From Candidatus Gastranaerophilales bacterium (lineage in GTDB: Bacteria; Cyanobacteriota; Vampirovibrionia; Gastranaerophilales; Gastranaerophilaceae): a DNA stretch of 64,000 nucleotides. Position numbers and translations under genes: made by a program. The stretch spans positions 62,001 through 126,000 of the forward strand of contig CALVEL010000001.1 in NCBI GenBank assembly GCA_944326565.1. Direction: 5' to 3'. Position 1 is the first letter of the stretch. Each line of letters begins with the position of its first letter. A model generated the notes under the pieces. It made no database searches and was not told the DNA's origin. It saw only the letters and a program-made list of their open reading frames with translations. Shown one piece after another: positions 13,500 through 59,363 of the stretch.

Positions 13500-14285
13500 A
13501 TGCTTTCAGGGGGGGGGGGGCACCCGTATAAAAGCCCTGCTTTGGGATTTGGATTCACAATAGCAGAGGTTTTAATTACAATTGCTATAATTGGGGTAGT
13601 TATAGCAATGACATTACCTTCTATTATTCAAAAACATCAAGAAAAAGAATGGGTCACAGCATATTTAAGAGTATATGCTATTTTAGAAAATGCATACAAA
13701 ATGGCTCAGGTTGAAAATGGAACTTTTGATAATTGGGCAGGATGTACATTAACTTTAGCGAATGATGGTGAATATAATCGTACAGCAAGCGATGGAATGA
13801 AGGTTTTTGATATGGTAATTAGACCATATGTAAAAACTAATGTTACTATTGAAAATCTTGCTACATGGAATGACAAAAATTGTTGGCCCGATAAATCTAA
13901 TGATCTATTTGGTGATGATGCATCTATGGATAATAGTCATAGAGTTCCTGCCGTTAGTCTTATGTCAGGGGAGTGTATTATATTAGGTCATCCACATGCT
14001 GATTTTATGGTAGATCTAAACGGTAAAAAAAGACCTAACACAATAGGTAAAGACCAGTTTATGTTTTCATTTGATATTACAAAAAGAACTCGTTTAAAGC
14101 CTGGATATCATCAGAGATGGTGGACAGATTCTCCTGTATATTGTCATGAAAGCAAATCAAGTGCAGATGCGGGCTGGACACCTGGTGCATCTTGTGGTTT
14201 TTGGATTTCGCGTTATCATAATATGGATTATTTGCATATGTCATATGAAGAATTAAAGAAAAAGTGGAATGGCGGTTGGTGGTAA
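13500..14285 (+). CDS. Prepilin-like protein, member 2, with G12 tract in its leader
   Basis: A pilin-like protein whose leader would be cut at LGFG|FTIAEVLITIAIIGVVIAMT, giving the class III signal with Glu5 and an N-terminal helix. The body is Trp- and Cys-rich, with VDLNGKKRPNTIGKDQF shared with other members. Two starts are possible. GTG 13481 has a strong ribosome site (AAAGGAGG) but with 12 Gs runs into a stop at 13529. ATG 13500 is in frame with 12 Gs but has only AGGA two bases upstream. With 11 Gs the GTG start would read straight through. Efficient expression may therefore depend on tract length. Confidence 0.8.
   Translation: MLSGGGGHPYKSPALGFGFTIAEVLITIAIIGVVIAMTLPSIIQKHQEKEWVTAYLRVYAILENAYKMAQVENGTFDNWAGCTLTLANDGEYNRTASDGMKVFDMVIRPYVKTNVTIENLATWNDKNCWPDKSNDLFGDDASMDNSHRVPAVSLMSGECIILGHPHADFMVDLNGKKRPNTIGKDQFMFSFDITKRTRLKPGYHQRWWTDSPVYCHESKSSADAGWTPGASCGFWISRYHNMDYLHMSYEELKKKWNGGWW
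13509..13520 (+). repeat. G12 homopolymer tract 2 (G12-CACCCG)
   Basis: Twelve consecutive Gs followed by CACCCG, ten codons after GTG 13481. Downstream, CACCCG is read in frame as His-Pro in this gene, whereas at the other two loci it falls in another frame and gives Ala-Pro. Conservation is thus at DNA level. Confidence 0.95.
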
Positions 14286-21934: not shown

Positions 21935-22624
21935 ATGAATAAAAGCAAAGCATTTACATTAGCAGAAGTTCTGATAACAATTGGAATAATAGGCATTGTA
22001 GCGGCAATGACTTTACTGGGATTGATTAATAATAACAGAAATAAAGCTTTAGAAACGGCATTTAAGAAGAATTATTCGGCGATAAATCAAGCACTAAATA
22101 TGTATTATGCGCAAAATGGTGAAAGATTAACTTATGATACCGTTGGAATACATGAATTAAAGCCTATTTTAATGAAATATATGAATGTATTATATGACTG
22201 TGGTTTCGGGTATTCAGATGAAGATTCAGCTTGTATTCCAAATTCTTCAGATGTAACTAAAATTTCAAAAGTATATAAAAATTTTAATGGAACTAATACA
22301 ATAGATTTGCATCCTATGGATGATGGGCAATTTATATTAAATGATGGTAGCCTTATTTTGCTTGAAAACGCAAGGAGTTCAGGAGGTCTTTTTATTTCTG
22401 TTGATGTAAATGGGTATTTAAAGAATCCAAATAGGTTAGGATGGGATTTATTTATGTTTCAAATAGATGCTAAAGGTAATTTATTACCAATGGGTGCGGA
22501 AGGTACAAGATACTATAATAAAAACGAAATATATTGTTCTAAAGATACAACATATACTACTAATGGTTCTGGATGTACGATAAAAGCAATAAATGAAAAA
22601 GATTATTTTACAAAATTGCGTTGA
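21935..22624 (+). CDS. Prepilin-like protein, member 3
   Basis: A 229-residue pilin-like protein starting MNKSKA|FTLAEVLITIGIIGIVAAMT, a short class III leader with Ala before the cut. The body contains a NDGSLILL strand and VDVNGYLKNPNRLGWDLFMFQ, the family signature VxVNGxxxPNRxGxDxF. Four Cys residues in the C-terminal half may form disulfides after export. There is no G tract. It has its own promoter and a divergent HTH gene. It is probably a minor pilin or pseudopilin. Confidence 0.88.
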   Translation: MNKSKAFTLAEVLITIGIIGIVAAMTLLGLINNNRNKALETAFKKNYSAINQALNMYYAQNGERLTYDTVGIHELKPILMKYMNVLYDCGFGYSDEDSACIPNSSDVTKISKVYKNFNGTNTIDLHPMDDGQFILNDGSLILLENARSSGGLFISVDVNGYLKNPNRLGWDLFMFQIDAKGNLLPMGAEGTRYYNKNEIYCSKDTTYTTNGSGCTIKAINEKDYFTKLR

Positions 22625-34464: not shown

Positions 34465-35191
34465 ATGAAAAAGCGCACTATGACTGGATTTATGGGGGGG
34501 GGGGGCACCCGAGAATAACGCTCCTGTAAAGGTTAAAGAAAAATTTTTAGGATTTACTTTAGCTGAAGTATTGATAACATTGGGGATTATTGGTGTAGTT
34601 GTCGCAATGACTTTACCGTCATTGATAGGCAAGTATCAGGAAAAGCAGTGGAAAGTAGCTTATAAAAAGGCATATTCAGGTTTTTCACAAGCATTTTTGC
34701 GATTGCAGGAAAATGGTGAATTGCTTAGTATGACACCTGAAGGTTATGATGAAAACGGAACTGCAATAAGTCCTGGAGTAGGCGAGAATTTCAAAAAGAT
34801 ATCCAAATATTTCAATGCAGTAAAGACTTGCTTTGATAATAATGCAGATGAATGCTGGGTATGCGATGAAGGACAAGCAGGATATTATTATTCATCAGCA
34901 CCTGATTATTTGGGGTGTACAAGGTCTAGTTACGCCTTTAAAGATAATTCAGGTATGGCGTGGTATCTATATAGAAATACAGAATGGCCTATTTTAGTTG
35001 ATGTAAACGGAGATAAAAGACCTAATAGATTAGGTCAGGATCGTTTTGTAATGCGTTTTGCTGATAGTAGAGATGCAGGTAATAATTATGCATCAGAAGC
35101 AAATGTTATTAAACCTTTGAGTGATATAGAGGAAAAAGGTCGTTGGTGTCCTAGCGGTCATTGTCTTTATACAACTTGGCTTTTGCATTAG
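34465..35191 (+). CDS. Prepilin-like protein, member 4, out of frame at a G12 tract
   Basis: A prepilin-like locus whose 5' part is out of frame with the rest. ATG 34465, preceded by AAGGAG, reads MKKRTMTGFMGGGG and stops at 34516. The pilin frame from 34484 on reads through GGGAPENNAPVK, then LG|FTLAEVLITLGIIGVVVAMTLPS, but has no ATG or GTG start after a TGA at 34481. Losing one G (12 to 11) would join the two and give a 29-residue leader ending in Gly. The body is closely related to the minus-strand gene at 40233. As sequenced, the gene should be off. A base-count error in the tract is the main alternative. Confidence 0.8.
34494..34505 (+). repeat. G12 homopolymer tract 3 (G12-CACCCG)
   Basis: Twelve Gs followed by CACCCG, ten codons after ATG 34465. 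After CACCCG the sequence GAGAATAACGCTCCTG closely matches the AAAATAAGCTCCTG after tract 1, so the shared motif extends about 20 bases beyond the Gs. Confidence 0.95.
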
Positions 35192-40232: not shown

Positions 40233-40889
40233 TTACTCCAAAAGCCATGTTTTATAAAGACAGTTGCCGCTTGGACACCAGCGTACCTTCATCGTGTAAT
40301 CTTCAAACGGTGCTATTCTGTCAATATGTTCATCGTAATTTCCGCCTTCTTTTGAGGCAAACTTCATCACAAACCTATCCTGACCAAGCCTGTTCGGCCG
40401 TTTATCCCCGTTTACATCCACCAAAATCGGGTATTCTACATTTCTATACAAATACCATGCCATCCCCGAAGCATCCACAAAAGAATAACTTGTTTTATAG
40501 CATCCAAGCCAATCAGGAGCACCTCCGCCTATATATCCGGACTGTCCCTCTTCACAAACCCAGCATTCATCCGCATTATTGTCAAAACATGTTTTTACAG
40601 TGTTGAAATACTTTGATATTGTTTTAAAATTCTCGCCGATTGCATCTGAAACAACCAATGTTGTTCCGGAATCAGTTTCTACATCATATGTATTTGAAAT
40701 ATCCTCAAATTCGCCGTTTTGCTGAACCCGCAGCAGAGCCTGAGATATGCCTGAATAAGCTTTTTTATAGGCGACTTTCCACTGTTTTTCTTGATATTTG
40801 CCTATTAAAGAAGGCAGAGTCATAGCAATAACGACTCCAAGAATGCCAAGGGTTATTAAAACTTCTGCCAAATTAAATCCTTTTTTCAA
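40233..40889 (-). CDS. Prepilin-like protein, member 5
   Basis: A 218-residue prepilin-like protein starting MKKG|FNLAEVLITLGILGVVIAMTLPS, a short class III leader with Gly before the cut. It is a close paralogue of the out-of-frame gene at 34465: both share LIGKYQEKQWKVAYKKAYSG, then TCFDNNADECWVC, YLYRN, PILVDVNGDKRPNRLGQDRF and RWCPSG. It has no G tract. The promoter is strong and framed by direct repeats, and an XRE regulator is transcribed divergently. Six to eight Cys residues suggest disulfides after export. Confidence 0.9.
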   Translation of the reverse strand: MKKGFNLAEVLITLGILGVVIAMTLPSLIGKYQEKQWKVAYKKAYSGISQALLRVQQNGEFEDISNTYDVETDSGTTLVVSDAIGENFKTISKYFNTVKTCFDNNADECWVCEEGQSGYIGGGAPDWLGCYKTSYSFVDASGMAWYLYRNVEYPILVDVNGDKRPNRLGQDRFVMKFASKEGGNYDEHIDRIAPFEDYTMKVRWCPSGNCLYKTWLLE

Positions 40890-54701: not shown

Positions 54702-56207
54702 TTATCCGAAAGTTTTGAATGTAGATTCAGTATTTTTTTCAATAACTTTTTGTACGGCATCCATTTCTGTTTGTATTGCGCTTTGTTCAGTATCAAGTTG
54801 TTTCAATCTCAATTCAAGATTCTTATCTTGGGCCTGAATAATTTCTATTTTTGCATTTATATCTTGAATTGCTTGATCATATAGGTATTTTTCATGTTCA
54901 TATTCATTCATTGCATCATTGTATGCATCTTGGTCTGTTACAGTGGTAGTTGTAAGTGCATATTCAGTATAAGTTCCAGTACCATCATTGTTCGGGATAT
55001 GGATTGAAATAAATCTTCCTGAAGAATCTCTTTCAACGCGGCAACCTTCAATTGCCTTTATTTCTTCAACTTTTGTATCACTTCCGATTGTATAGCAATT
55101 AATATTGTTTAAAATATTTCCGTTTTCATCGACTTGATTTGCATTATTGTCGATATCAGTTTTCTTATAAAAATATGGTTTTTGTGAACCAGTTGTAGAA
55201 TCACTTACGTATCTTACATACCACATTTCAGCAGGTGTACCGTATTTATCTTCTAATTGCTGAGCCCATGCTGCTTCTTCTCTTAACATTGCATCAATTT
55301 GATCTCTTGTCATTGTAGAGAATGTAGGGTCATCAAATGCTCCTGCATAATTAGTAATACTATCTATTTGTTCATCAGTTAAATATTGTTTACTTGTTAC
55401 ATCCTCATAGCCTTCTTTGCTGTATGTTCCGTCTTCATTTTTCTGAACCAAAGTAACTGCATTTTCAGGATCTGTTTCTGTTTCATCCCATAAAGATATA
55501 ATTAAATCTTCTTCGGTTATACCTGGTAAATCGATTTGAGTACCGTCTTCATCTAATTTATAAAATCCGCCTGTTTCCTCATTTTTGTAAACAGTTTCTG
55601 CTGATGTAAAGTCTTCATTGAATAAATAATACTCAAAATTAGCAATATCTTCATCAGTACAAGGCACCATTGCTTTAACTGATTCAGTCTTTTCTATATA
55701 GTACCCGCTTCCATCTTGCAATACAGGATATGTTTCTCCGCCTAAAATGATCTCATCATTTACTTTAAGTTCTGCATCGATAGAGCCTAAGATTCTAAGA
55801 GCAGTAGTCCCAACATAATAGTTGCCATTTTGTACATTAATAACACTTGTAGATGCTGCGACCGGTACGTAATCATCTTGCCACTTTGAAAGATAGCTGA
55901 GAGTATAAGTTCCGTTATTTTGCGCTATTAAAGATGTAATTTCATTTGTCAAAGCACCATCTTCAAATGTATAAACAGTTTTTGTATAACTATCAACAGA
56001 CGGGGGAGTAGGTACAGACATACCCAGCAGGTCATTATAATAGTTTGCAGACTGATTAGACAATGATGTGCGTTGTTGGTTAATCTGTTGACCTTCAAAC
56101 TCAACATTAGTCTTGCGGGCTGTCAAACCTAAAAATCTAGCTTGTGACGCTGCCATTCCCATGACTGTCTGTTTCCCTTTCATTTTTTCTTGTGTACCTA
56201 TACGCAT
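54702..56207 (-). CDS. Lineage-specific protein of 501 residues, unknown function
   Basis: No family is recognised. The N-terminal 60 residues (MGMAASQARFLGLTARKTNVEFEGQQINQQRTSLSNQSANYYNDLL) look like a flagellar- or surface-type helical segment and would form a coiled coil. Residues 80-400 are acidic, Asn/Thr-rich and probably beta-rich. The C-terminal 65 residues are again a coiled coil (LYDQAIQDINAKIEIIQAQD onward). This helix-beta-helix layout recalls flagellin- or hook-like proteins, but the resemblance is only in arrangement. The start may instead be a few codons downstream. Confidence 0.65.
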   Translation of the reverse strand: MRIGTQEKMKGKQTVMGMAASQARFLGLTARKTNVEFEGQQINQQRTSLSNQSANYYNDLLGMSVPTPPSVDSYTKTVYTFEDGALTNEITSLIAQNNGTYTLSYLSKWQDDYVPVAASTSVINVQNGNYYVGTTALRILGSIDAELKVNDEIILGGETYPVLQDGSGYYIEKTESVKAMVPCTDEDIANFEYYLFNEDFTSAETVYKNEETGGFYKLDEDGTQIDLPGITEEDLIISLWDETETDPENAVTLVQKNEDGTYSKEGYEDVTSKQYLTDEQIDSITNYAGAFDDPTFSTMTRDQIDAMLREEAAWAQQLEDKYGTPAEMWYVRYVSDSTTGSQKPYFYKKTDIDNNANQVDENGNILNNINCYTIGSDTKVEEIKAIEGCRVERDSSGRFISIHIPNNDGTGTYTEYALTTTTVTDQDAYNDAMNEYEHEKYLYDQAIQDINAKIEIIQAQDKNLELRLKQLDTEQSAIQTEMDAVQKVIEKNTESTFKTFG

Positions 56208-56284: not shown

Positions 56285-56791
56285 TTATTGTTTAAATTTG
56301 TTCGAAATGTATGCTAGTATTGCCCCTCCGACTTCTTCATTTGGATCAAAGTTTGCTTGTGGAGGATTTATGGAATTTCTGATTAACATAGATATTAGAG
56401 GTCCAAAGGCATCAGGAACTTGTATTTTTCGGTAAATTCCTGCTAAAAAAGTTTGGATATTAGGGGAATTTGTCCAGTTAAAACGCGATAATACAGGATA
56501 CATTTTGTCTATTCCTTTTGTGCCTGCATCTATAAGACGGTCTGTTATGTATAAGGTTTCTGTAATTTCAGCTTCATCATTTGAGGTAGATAGTATATTA
56601 TATATATAAGGAAGAGCATTTTCTTTTTGTTTTACAAAATTATCAACTTTTATCGGGTCTACAAGAATGTGATTTCTGCTTCCTGTAGGCATTTGAATAG
56701 ATTGTGTCTGTTGTATTTGAGATCGTTTAGAATAAACGTAAGTTTGCGGGGACACATTATTATATATATAGGGTTGTATCGGTTGAATCAT
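56285..56791 (-). CDS. Protein of 168 residues, unknown function
   Basis: No family is recognised. A Gln/Ser-rich N-terminus (IQPYIYNNVSPQTYVYSKRS) leads to a helical-repeat-like part (NILSTSNDEAEITETLYITDRLIDAGTKGIDKMYPVL, GPLISMLIRNSINPPQ) that could be a single HEAT-like module. It sits between two lineage-specific genes on the same strand and may belong to a functional block from 54.7 to 59 kb. Confidence 0.55.
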   Translation of the reverse strand: MIQPIQPYIYNNVSPQTYVYSKRSQIQQTQSIQMPTGSRNHILVDPIKVDNFVKQKENALPYIYNILSTSNDEAEITETLYITDRLIDAGTKGIDKMYPVLSRFNWTNSPNIQTFLAGIYRKIQVPDAFGPLISMLIRNSINPPQANFDPNEEVGGAILAYISNKFKQ

Positions 56792-56820: not shown

Positions 56821-58320
56821 CTATGAATATACAAATGGCGGACCATTTTTGATTTCAAGAAGAATGTTTTCTGCCATTGTTTTTAATTCTTCTTTTGGTT
56901 TGCCTGATTTTGCCTGTCTGTAAAATTCATCCATAAGAGGTTGTATTGCTGCATCTTTTTTCGATTTAAAGTTTCTTAATTCAGTAGATACAAGTCTTTG
57001 CTGTAAATTTACTTCAGTATCAGCATTAAGTTTTTTAACTTGAACATCTTTTATTGCTTCTCCGACAAGTTTTCCTCCGTATCCGACAGCTGCAAGTCCG
57101 GTAGTACCGAAAAACAGAGCTTTAAACTGCTTGTTATCCGTATCAAGCAGATAGTTATAAAAGAAGGCTCTGAAATCATCTACATGTGAATAGAAGGTTA
57201 CTTTTGGAGTAGAACCGCCTCCGCAGCTCGGGTTTGCATCTACTGTAGAGCGTTTGAGATCTTTCAAAACAGATTGAATAAAATCCTCTTTGTTTTCTAA
57301 TTTAAGATCTTTAAGATATTCTCTTATTTGCAATTCAGAAGGTTCTATTGACTTAAACAGATTTTTTAAATCAGCTATTGTCTGTTTTTCATTTTCTTTT
57401 GTTGAATTTAATACTACGTTTTTTATCTCTTTTCCTGTTTGTTTTATAAAGTCATTAATATTTCCTTTGCTTTTAGTAAGGTTTTTTAGTGAAATAAATC
57501 CGAGTCCGACTATTCCTGCGAATGTTGCAAGTCCCATTAATATATAGTTAATATTATTTTGCTTTGAATACGTTATTGAGGCTTGTTCTTCTGCTCCTTT
57601 AAACATAATTGCTTTAAATGTCTCATCAGGTGTTTTTCGTTTTTGAGGTTCGTATTTTAAGTATTTACCTAACTCTATTGCTTTTTGGGAAAGCATACTT
57701 CTTGTTATTTGAATTTTGCCTGCAAAGGATTTTGTTTCAATATCAATAAGTTTTTCCTGTAGATTTTTTTGGATGTCGGCTTCACGTTTTTTAACCCAGA
57801 CATCACGAAATCCGTCAAAGAAAGTCTTGCCCATAAAAGCCATTGCTGTAAGTGCAAAAACTCCGGTTCCTGCAGTTATAGTCTTCCAATTCGGGCATTC
57901 TACAATTCGATATAGTGCTTGTACGGGTTCATCGTTAATTGCTACGTTTCTTAGAGTTGAGGGAACTCGTTTTAAGGAATCGATATTAAGATTAATTTTG
58001 GCGCTGTGGTGTATAAATGCTGTAATACCTGCAATGATGCCCATTACACCAAGTGCTATCCCGCTTATAGGAAGAAGTTTTTTTTCTCCTTGTATATCTT
58101 TTTCGTATAGTTTATTCGGCATTTGGGTATTTTTTGATATTACAAGGGTATCCATTGTCTCGTTAAGTGTCAGGTTATTACTTGTATCAGTTTCTTTTAT
58201 GAATTGATTTACGAGTACACCTTCTTTTGTATCTGAATTTGTTCTTTTTTGTGCACGTGTCAGGTTTTTTTGTTGGCGTAAAGTTTCATTATCATGAAAT
58301 GTGTTATTGTTGATGTTCAT
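56821..58320 (-). CDS. Membrane protein of 499 residues with an internal duplication
   Basis: No family is recognised. Hydrophobic segments lie at about 84-103 and 258-278, with weaker ones near 150-166 and 403-418. Residues about 153-203 and 405-455 are similar: the first has GKTFFDGFRDVWVKKREADI then QKNLQEKLIDIETKSF, and the second has GKLVGEAIKDVQVKKLNADT then EVNLQQRLVSTELRNF. The protein thus contains two copies of a membrane-helix plus coiled-coil module. The gene start overlaps the end of its neighbour by 17 bases. Confidence 0.65.
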   Translation of the reverse strand: MNINNNTFHDNETLRQQKNLTRAQKRTNSDTKEGVLVNQFIKETDTSNNLTLNETMDTLVISKNTQMPNKLYEKDIQGEKKLLPISGIALGVMGIIAGITAFIHHSAKINLNIDSLKRVPSTLRNVAINDEPVQALYRIVECPNWKTITAGTGVFALTAMAFMGKTFFDGFRDVWVKKREADIQKNLQEKLIDIETKSFAGKIQITRSMLSQKAIELGKYLKYEPQKRKTPDETFKAIMFKGAEEQASITYSKQNNINYILMGLATFAGIVGLGFISLKNLTKSKGNINDFIKQTGKEIKNVVLNSTKENEKQTIADLKNLFKSIEPSELQIREYLKDLKLENKEDFIQSVLKDLKRSTVDANPSCGGGSTPKVTFYSHVDDFRAFFYNYLLDTDNKQFKALFFGTTGLAAVGYGGKLVGEAIKDVQVKKLNADTEVNLQQRLVSTELRNFKSKKDAAIQPLMDEFYRQAKSGKPKEELKTMAENILLEIKNGPPFVYS

Positions 58321-59008
58321 TATTTTCTAAATCCTTTTCATTTTCAGTAAGTTTTTTATATAAATCGTGAATGAAAGTTCTTAATTCGAAAGTTTTTTTA
58401 GTCTCATCAATTTGTTTTTCATCGTTGTCTGCATCAAGTGGTTTGAATATTCCAAACAGTGATTTTACCTTTTTCTTCAATTCATTAAAAGTCTCAGAAA
58501 TTTTCTTTTCAATTGAAGCTTTTAATTCACCCATCATTGCGGTCAGTTTATCTGATATATCGGCGAGTTTTTGTTGAATGTTTTGTAGGGTATTAGTGAT
58601 TGTTTGAGGAATATTTTTAATAAGATTAATCGTACCGCCTATTATTGTATTAATTATAAAATTAGCAGGCTTTGCAATAATTGAGGGAGTGTTATTGTTG
58701 AAAAACTGTGCCAATTCTGCAACTTTTAATCGGGCATTACTCATTGTATTTTGAAAATTTTGCATCTGAAGTGCGAAATTTTGAATATCTTGTTGTCTTT
58801 GAGCTTTTGCATTTGCTTGCGCTTTTAAAAAAGCTCCGATTGCTGCACATTCATTCCAACTCATTTCACCTGGTTTTGCGGAAAAGTCAGCTTTTTTCAT
58901 TCCGCTTCCCCCTCCCATTCCGTTGCAGATGGGGCAGGCTCCTATTGGCAATCCATGCGGGCATGTGCCTATTCTTGCATTGTTTGTGCTTATTGTTGCT
59001 AATTGCAT
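58304..59008 (-). CDS. Cys-motif protein of 234 residues, unknown function
   Basis: The N-terminus reads MQLATISTNNARIGTCPHGLPIGACPICNGMGGGSG, a CPHG-x4-ACPIC pattern that looks like a zinc ribbon with four possible ligands (CPH and CPIC). The rest is helical and coiled (about 70-230), ending in a charged tail (LTENEKDLENNEHQQ). The start at 59008 is preferred, with AAGAGG nine bases upstream, over a longer frame from 59089. Its 3' end overlaps the start of the 499-aa gene. A structured leader precedes it (59050-59180). Confidence 0.65.
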   Translation of the reverse strand: MQLATISTNNARIGTCPHGLPIGACPICNGMGGGSGMKKADFSAKPGEMSWNECAAIGAFLKAQANAKAQRQQDIQNFALQMQNFQNTMSNARLKVAELAQFFNNNTPSIIAKPANFIINTIIGGTINLIKNIPQTITNTLQNIQQKLADISDKLTAMMGELKASIEKKISETFNELKKKVKSLFGIFKPLDADNDEKQIDETKKTFELRTFIHDLYKKLTENEKDLENNEHQQ

Positions 59009-59049
59009 TAAAAAATCCTCTTGTCGCTTGTTGGATTTTGTATATCCAA

Positions 59050-59180
59050 AATACGAGAGGACACTTAGAAAAATTTTGAACTCCTCCAAACAGCACGTGA
59101 AGAAAGTTATTTCTCTGAGTGTTCCGGCTTTTACGGCTGCGGCTACAGCTGGAGATGTTCACTCCATTTCCTCTTGTATT
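59050..59180 (-). promoter_or_regulatory. Highly structured 5' leader, riboswitch-like
   Basis: On the minus strand, AATACAAGAGGA (59180 to 59169) pairs with TCCTCTCGTATT (59061 to 59050), 11 of 12, closing a ~131-nt domain. Inside are GGAG/CTCC and GCTG/CAGC hairpins, and a second helix in which CACTCAGAGAAA pairs with TTTTTCTAAGTG (one mismatch, one G-U). It lies about 40-170 bases upstream of the CPHG gene start. One part, GCTGTAGCCGCAGCCGTAA, faintly resembles the cobalamin riboswitch core but the B12 box is not seen. Confidence 0.5.
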
Positions 59181-59363
59181 TAAGGTTAAAATAACAAAAA
59201 TTTTATGTCAAACTTTTGTTATGTTTTATTAAATAAGCATATATATCTATATATATAATATATAGATAGTTAGAATTTATGTAAATTAATTTTTTTTTAC
59301 TACTAGCAAAAAAAAAAATTCTTAGGTATTATATATTCCATATAAACTTCTTTGGAATTATAT

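Follow-up and report, generated by a model that had tools for sequence, protein, structure and literature searches.

A predicted AdoCbl-II cobalamin riboswitch in the leader of an uncharacterised three-gene operon of Gastranaerophilales

In the env8 cobalamin riboswitch, a P3-P6 four-way junction is combined with a bulged kissing helix between the loops L5 and L13, and the ribosome-binding site is located in the P13 loop; the excerpts of that study drawn on here also mention a kissing helix with a one-nucleotide bulge for other B12 riboswitches (PMC10907184). In Bacteroides thetaiotaomicron, cobalamin riboswitches were reported to precede cobamide uptake operons, in which formerly uncharacterised genes encode the cobamide-binding proteins BtuK and BtuJ; according to the available sections of that paper, these operons work together with BtuB/BtuG and BtuFCD, and their products are mostly lipoproteins (PMC12751083). 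Our literature search found no publication joining Gastranaerophilales and a riboswitch.

Here we describe a leader on the minus strand of a 64,000-nucleotide stretch of a Candidatus Gastranaerophilales genome (the window), which lies in front of a gene for a protein referred to as CPHG. The core sequence and the P3-to-P6 fold of this leader are those of the Rfam aptamer RF01689 (AdoCbl-II), and its score exceeds the gathering cut-off of that family; it differs in having a P3 reduced to GAG:CUC, a long P13 arm followed by a separate switch strand, and controlled genes without a family match in Pfam, NCBIfam or PDB. The four-way junction and the bulged L5-L13 helix are shared with env8 as described in those excerpts (PMC10907184), but the ribosome-binding site is not found in L13, and a UCCUCU strand downstream of P13 can mask it instead. 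Leaders of nrdDG-, metE- and btuB-type genes (L068, L031 and L110) belong to the same Rfam family and the same lineage, and several leaders of these types appeared by eye to have a short P13 near or overlapping the Shine-Dalgarno (SD) sequence and no strand exchange. This RNA adds a new member to a known family of riboswitches and has an expression platform of its own. We consider it quite probable that ample B12 makes this predicted AdoCbl-II riboswitch turn its three-gene operon OFF. The coordinates of the leader, the operon and some other genes are collected in Table 1.

Table 1. Features of the leader, its operon and other genes of the window
Feature	Position in window	Strand	Basis
Probable promoter: TTGACA 59211-59206, 17-nt spacer, TAACCT 59188-59183	59183-59211	-	read from the sequence
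AdoCbl-II (RF01689) aptamer match	59110-59187	-	Rfam score, alignment
5' AGAGGA; GAG 59173-59171 gives the P3 strand; all six nucleotides can pair with UCCUCU 59061-59056	59169-59174	-	pairs in 51-58 of 58 leaders per helix
P4 hairpin (UGGAG / CUCCA)	59150-59166	-	four pairs changed on both sides, pairing retained
P5 hairpin; loop L5 59145-59140	59136-59149	-	alignment; L5 types covary with L13
P6 hairpin	59124-59136	-	paired in 58 of 58 leaders, invariant
J6/3 AACA 59123-59120 and P3 3' strand CUC 59119-59117	59117-59123	-	alignment
P13 arm (second long helix of the initial annotation); L13 CGUGCU 59097-59092 can kiss L5	59067-59116	-	folds, covariation
Switch strand UCCUCU	59056-59061	-	UCCUC invariant in 58 of 58 leaders; either AGAGGA can pair
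Shine-Dalgarno AGAGGA 59021-59016 and U6 59015-59010	59010-59021	-	GAGGA invariant in 58 of 58 leaders
CPHG gene, 234 aa, first of the operon	58304-59008	-	homologue in 49 of 59 genomes
Second gene, 499 aa, helical, at least 2 membrane stretches	56821-58320	-	
Third gene, 168 aa, helical-repeat fold	56285-56791	-	model pLDDT 85
Prepilin-like proteins	1092-1829, 13500-14285, 21935-22624, 34571-35191	+	
Prepilin-like protein	40233-40889	-	

Family assignment and the conserved aptamer core

The initial annotation had described the leader of the CPHG gene as riboswitch-like, with a weak resemblance to the cobalamin riboswitch core. That resemblance proved to be the correct lead and was underrated: directly upstream of the gene, on the minus strand, the RF01689 match reached 39.3 bits (E 8e-6), above the family's gathering score of 36.5. 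It was the only riboswitch placed by Rfam in the whole window, and the only RF01689 match in the genome of origin. Membership of AdoCbl-II is indicated both by this covariance-model score and by the presence of the four-helix core P3-P6. The class I cobalamin model (RF00174) gave 23.5 bits at the same site, under its cut-off of 31.5, and a class I identity was dropped. A known family explains the leader, an outcome that the initial annotation had named as refuting its reading, so the leader does not represent an orphan riboswitch class.

The 131-nt fold that had been proposed for 59050-59180 was found in full, and it formed on either strand; it consists of an outer helix AAUACAAGAGGA/UCCUCUCGUAUU with a single mismatched position, a further long helix and a pair of short hairpins. 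The minimum free energy was -37.9 kcal/mol on the plus strand (z -2.99, with 1 of 200 shuffles as good) and -37.7 kcal/mol on the minus strand (z -2.92, with 0 of 200). The minus strand was taken as the functional one, since it carries both the Rfam match and, downstream of it, the CPHG gene (ATG at 59008). The plus-strand reading was dropped on the same grounds; terminator-like sites on the plus strand overlie the P4 region and were read as the complement of P4. Taken alone, the z-scores of the folds (-2.9 to -3.0) are moderate, which would speak for a chance structure in an AT-rich intergenic stretch. We find such an origin scarcely credible, since the Rfam match, the conserved position before orthologous genes, and the covariation in P4 and the kissing loop already contradict it.

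For the comparison, leaders were fetched for the best 80 of 254 relatives of the CPHG protein, which gave 81 leaders with that of the window; the aptamer core motif was present in 81 of 81. From the 80, seven leaders (L159, L160, L175, L183, L186, L197 and L202) were set aside, and 57 of the remaining 73 were aligned with the window leader (alignment A5, 58 leaders), the other 16 being dropped to thin the set. Covariation was seen among the orthologous leaders: four P4 pairs differ on both sides and remain paired, and the L5-L13 kissing pair covaries as well. P6 did not vary, the inner pairs of P5 were kept, and the pairs of P3, which has just 3 bp, were each retained in 51 to 58 of the 58 leaders.

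Kissing pairs between L5 and L13 are possible in 56 to 58 of the 58 leaders, and the two loops change together. L5 UAGCCGC (29 leaders) was mostly paired with L13 ACGUGCU, CUGCCGC (20 leaders) with CGUGCAG and GUGCCGC (21 leaders) with GCGAGCA, while CUGGCGC (6 leaders) was accompanied by CGCNCAG in 6 of 6; these counts are of sequences and not of independent events, and the L13 assignment is wrong for L159 and L160 and doubtful for the lone TGGCCGC leader. Complementarity and covariation are both seen in a kissing helix that requires one bulged nucleotide in every listed pairing. The leaders L159 and L160 carry a long insertion, of some tens of nucleotides, in P6.

Upstream of the aptamer, a TTGAC element was found 36-46 nt before the GGAA core in 75 of the 81 leaders; of 4000 random 75-nt windows, 286 had such an element. 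It was absent from the listing of the promoter tool for the window. The six inner pairs of the outer helix were kept among the orthologous leaders (51 to 58 of the 58, varying by pair), and the outer AAUAC/GUAUU part was not kept in the same alignment. If transcription starts where the TTGAC element suggests, the AAUAC/GUAUU part would lie at or before the start, and the helix in the RNA would therefore be shorter, probably 6-9 bp rather than 12.

Proposed strand exchange and the Shine-Dalgarno sequence

The strand UCCUCU has two possible partners, the 5' AGAGGA and the SD AGAGGA, and all 58 aligned leaders allow UCCUC:GAGGA pairing. The anti-SD helix was judged by alignment columns, as A/U-rich pairings misled the automatic search in several leaders. 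RNAalifold picked the SD hairpin for the alignment. In the window leader the two folds were near-equal, with -45.4 kcal/mol for the outer helix and -44.2 kcal/mol for the SD hairpin; for a transcript ending at the SD, -43.0 kcal/mol was obtained with the outer helix and -31.0 kcal/mol with P3, values that contain no ligand or kissing term.

In its ligand-bound form, the aptamer is probably not closed by the outer helix AGAGGA:UCCUCU. As the same GAG forms P3 with CUC in the Rfam-type core, this helix is better read as a competing strand-exchange helix. We infer a switch that is OFF with B12 bound. Without B12, the nascent RNA would pair its 5' AGAGGA with UCCUCU, leaving the SD free (ON). On binding of B12, GAG would be held in P3 and L13 docked on L5, which would free UCCUCU for the SD AGAGGA; the resulting hairpin, followed by U6, would block ribosome binding (OFF) and may also end transcription.

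The surroundings of the SD were compared with controls. Among the 80 CPHG leaders from the best 80 of the 254 relatives, 75 had at least 5 U between SD and start codon, as did 12 of the 291 other genes in these loci. The mean pairing probability of the SD in these 80 leaders was 0.95 versus 0.71 with shuffled upstream sequence, and it exceeded 0.8 in 72 of 80 versus 564 of 1600; the frequent masking of the SD in shuffled AT-rich leaders as well (the mean of 0.71) counts against the switch model. In one relative (G020), AGUGUCCUCU, a short loop, AGAGGACACU and a U-tract precede the start codon as a 10-bp terminator-like hairpin; the SD hairpin of the window has a long loop and is no ideal terminator. 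In the outer-helix fold of the window, the SD GGA can still pair with AAAAUCC, so the ON state is not clean. Since the pairs of P3, the SD hairpin and the outer helix hardly vary, covariation is of little help in judging the switch. Three short leaders (L183, L186 and L197) lack the UCCUC switch strand, and their P13 stem stands directly before the start region.

The same pairings could be read in the opposite sense, B12 stabilising AGAGGA:UCCUCU as a closing stem, so that the SD is released and the operon turned on. The retention of the outer helix (51-58 of 58 leaders per pair), its stacking beside the P13 arm and the slight preference of ligand-free folds for it over the SD hairpin speak for such an ON switch. 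We judge it unlikely, because the outer helix competes with the P3 (GAG:CUC) used by the Rfam-type core, because the other AdoCbl-II genes of the relatives resemble those turned off by B12 elsewhere, and because B12 riboswitches, as described in the excerpts of the env8 study, hide the ribosome site when bound (PMC10907184).

Distribution in relatives and other AdoCbl-II targets

RF01689 was matched at E <= 0.001 in 54 of 59 genomes, the own genome included, and above the gathering score in 41 of 59. A CPHG homologue was present in 49 of the 59 (again with the own genome), and in 43 of these 49 it was directly preceded by an AdoCbl-II match in the same orientation, at a distance of 73 to 355 nt from the matched stretch of the CPHG protein. 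Six genomes had CPHG without an upstream match (G037, G040, G043, G050, G053 and G056); five of them are of family f3, with weak CPHG similarity. The protein-led scan of species genomes returned the 254 relatives among 259 pattern matches. Where the titles of the best 80 name a group, it is mostly Candidatus Gastranaerophilales or Melainabacteria; one names Heliobacteriaceae, and several read just uncultured bacterium. Within the class, the CPHG protein was found in 183 of 289 genomes, and outside the order one weak match (G084, 4.1e-6) occurred among the matching genomes listed.

Altogether, 78 RF01689 matches were obtained in the 59 genomes, 35 of them without a CPHG link, including one at a contig edge (G006). 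The genes downstream of the non-CPHG copies were clustered and the cluster representatives named with NCBIfam. One target comprised a BtuB-like receptor together with a permease of BtuC type, an ABC ATPase and a BtuF-like protein, none of which reached the equivalog cut-offs; further targets in relatives were NrdD with NrdG, a cut-off fragment of MetE, and CobT. These BtuB/C/D/F-like, NrdD-NrdG, MetE and CobT targets are typical B12-regulon genes; nrdDG-, metE- and btuB-type genes and the like are switched off by B12 elsewhere.

An AdoCbl-II-type core might also have drifted to another ligand or lost binding, leaving the operon free of B12 control. The modest score of the window copy (39.3 against 36.5 bits) and an operon with no recognised B12 gene would fit such drift, which we nevertheless hold to be very improbable: core and kissing loop are retained in all 81 leaders (the best 80 of 254 relatives and the window), CPHG-linked copies in relatives reach 54.4 bits, and AdoCbl-II copies precede classical B12 genes in the same or related genomes.

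Some other copies were observed in passing. In two loci (L020 on G038:C76 and L093 on G050:C32) the match precedes a 448-449-aa protein of cluster 14, whose representative had no NCBIfam match at 1e-5. At G038:C76:1882-2413 (L107 and L020), two divergent matches are separated by about 340 nt; CobT follows one of them and the 449-aa protein the other. In another order of the class, a match below the cut-off (L102, G058:C12:30133-30203, 30.8 bits) precedes a 962-aa reductase-like protein scoring 394.3 bits with NrdJ, just under the cut-off.

The CPHG operon and its possible part in B12 supply

The operon is a conserved trio of CPHG, a protein of about 500 aa that is helical with membrane stretches, and a helical-repeat protein of about 170 aa; at the best 80 of the 254 relatives, a complete second gene was present at 79 and a third at 77 loci. 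Nine residues of CPHG (C16, P17, H18, G19, G23, C25, P26, C28 and G30) are invariant in 25 diverse members and likely form a metal knuckle. Profile searches of Pfam, NCBIfam and PDB gave no convincing family for any of the three proteins; weak and inconsistent coiled-coil-type matches were discarded, among them one between CPHG and a cobalamin adenosyltransferase family (E 0.049), which was not trusted. The structure model of the second protein was poor (pLDDT 59). That of the third was confident and resembled generic helical repeats (best E 0.22), with no structural match at 0.001.

Family searches of the three proteins revealed no BtuB receptor, BtuFCD or ECF component, and no signal peptide or lipobox was seen in them by eye; they resemble neither a known transporter nor a corrinoid binder. 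The operon thus has none of the partners or lipoproteins of the B. thetaiotaomicron operons, as far as these are set out in the available sections of that paper (PMC12751083). Downstream of the operon there is a fourth gene (54702-56207, minus strand, 501 aa); in 11 of the 43 linked loci a member of its cluster stands behind the CPHG operon, and the relative tested had no NCBIfam match. Elsewhere in the window, several scattered proteins have prepilin-like N-termini, such as FTLAEVLITIGIIG.

The ribonucleotide reductase NrdJ requires AdoCbl. The own genome has NrdJ (TIGR02504, 750.6 bits), which is above the cut-off in 50 of the 59 genomes; no match was obtained in the own genome for TonB Plug, FecCD/BtuC, CbiQ/EcfT, CobS or the MetH B12 domain. 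Among the 36 genomes of its family (G000-G035), NrdJ was above the cut-off in 30 and CPHG was present in 33, with Plug above the cut-off in 4, FecCD in 3, CbiQ in 0 and CobS in 0. With G006 excluded, as its contig ends at the riboswitch, CPHG was positively associated with NrdJ (45/4/5/4, Fisher p 0.015) and opposed to BtuB plus BtuC (4/45/4/5, Fisher p 0.015), both being weak associations that ignore phylogeny.

The operon becomes a candidate for B12 acquisition because NrdJ is present, receptor plug, BtuC, EcfT and CobS were not found, and its proteins gave no family match. That it helps to get B12 is the most economical guess, and a role in sparing B12 is possible; regulation and host gene content point to one or the other. 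Only tentatively would we regard it as a previously unrecognised B12 acquisition or handling system, in which the knuckle CPHG-x3-G-x-CPxC might bind metal or corrinoid; with equal reserve, such a system could be the one used by those NrdJ-bearing Gastranaerophilales in which the searches detected neither BtuB, BtuC or ECF transport nor late B12 synthesis. Three sets of genomes go against the uptake idea: CPHG occurs together with BtuB/BtuC in G025, G035, G041 and G046, and without a full NrdJ match in G016, G022, G033 and G035, while G036 and G038 have NrdJ without CPHG and without BtuB/BtuC.

A precedent for riboswitch-linked genes of no known role that bind cobamides is provided by Bacteroides, in the available sections of the paper cited above (PMC12751083). 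In the present case, the predicted riboswitch brings a conserved and as yet uncharacterised operon of these uncultured gut bacteria into the B12 regulon and names its three proteins as candidates for B12 supply. Most such genomes carry a B12-dependent reductase, yet most lack the B12 import parts searched for, and the operon may help these probably B12-dependent gut bacteria to cope when B12 is scarce.
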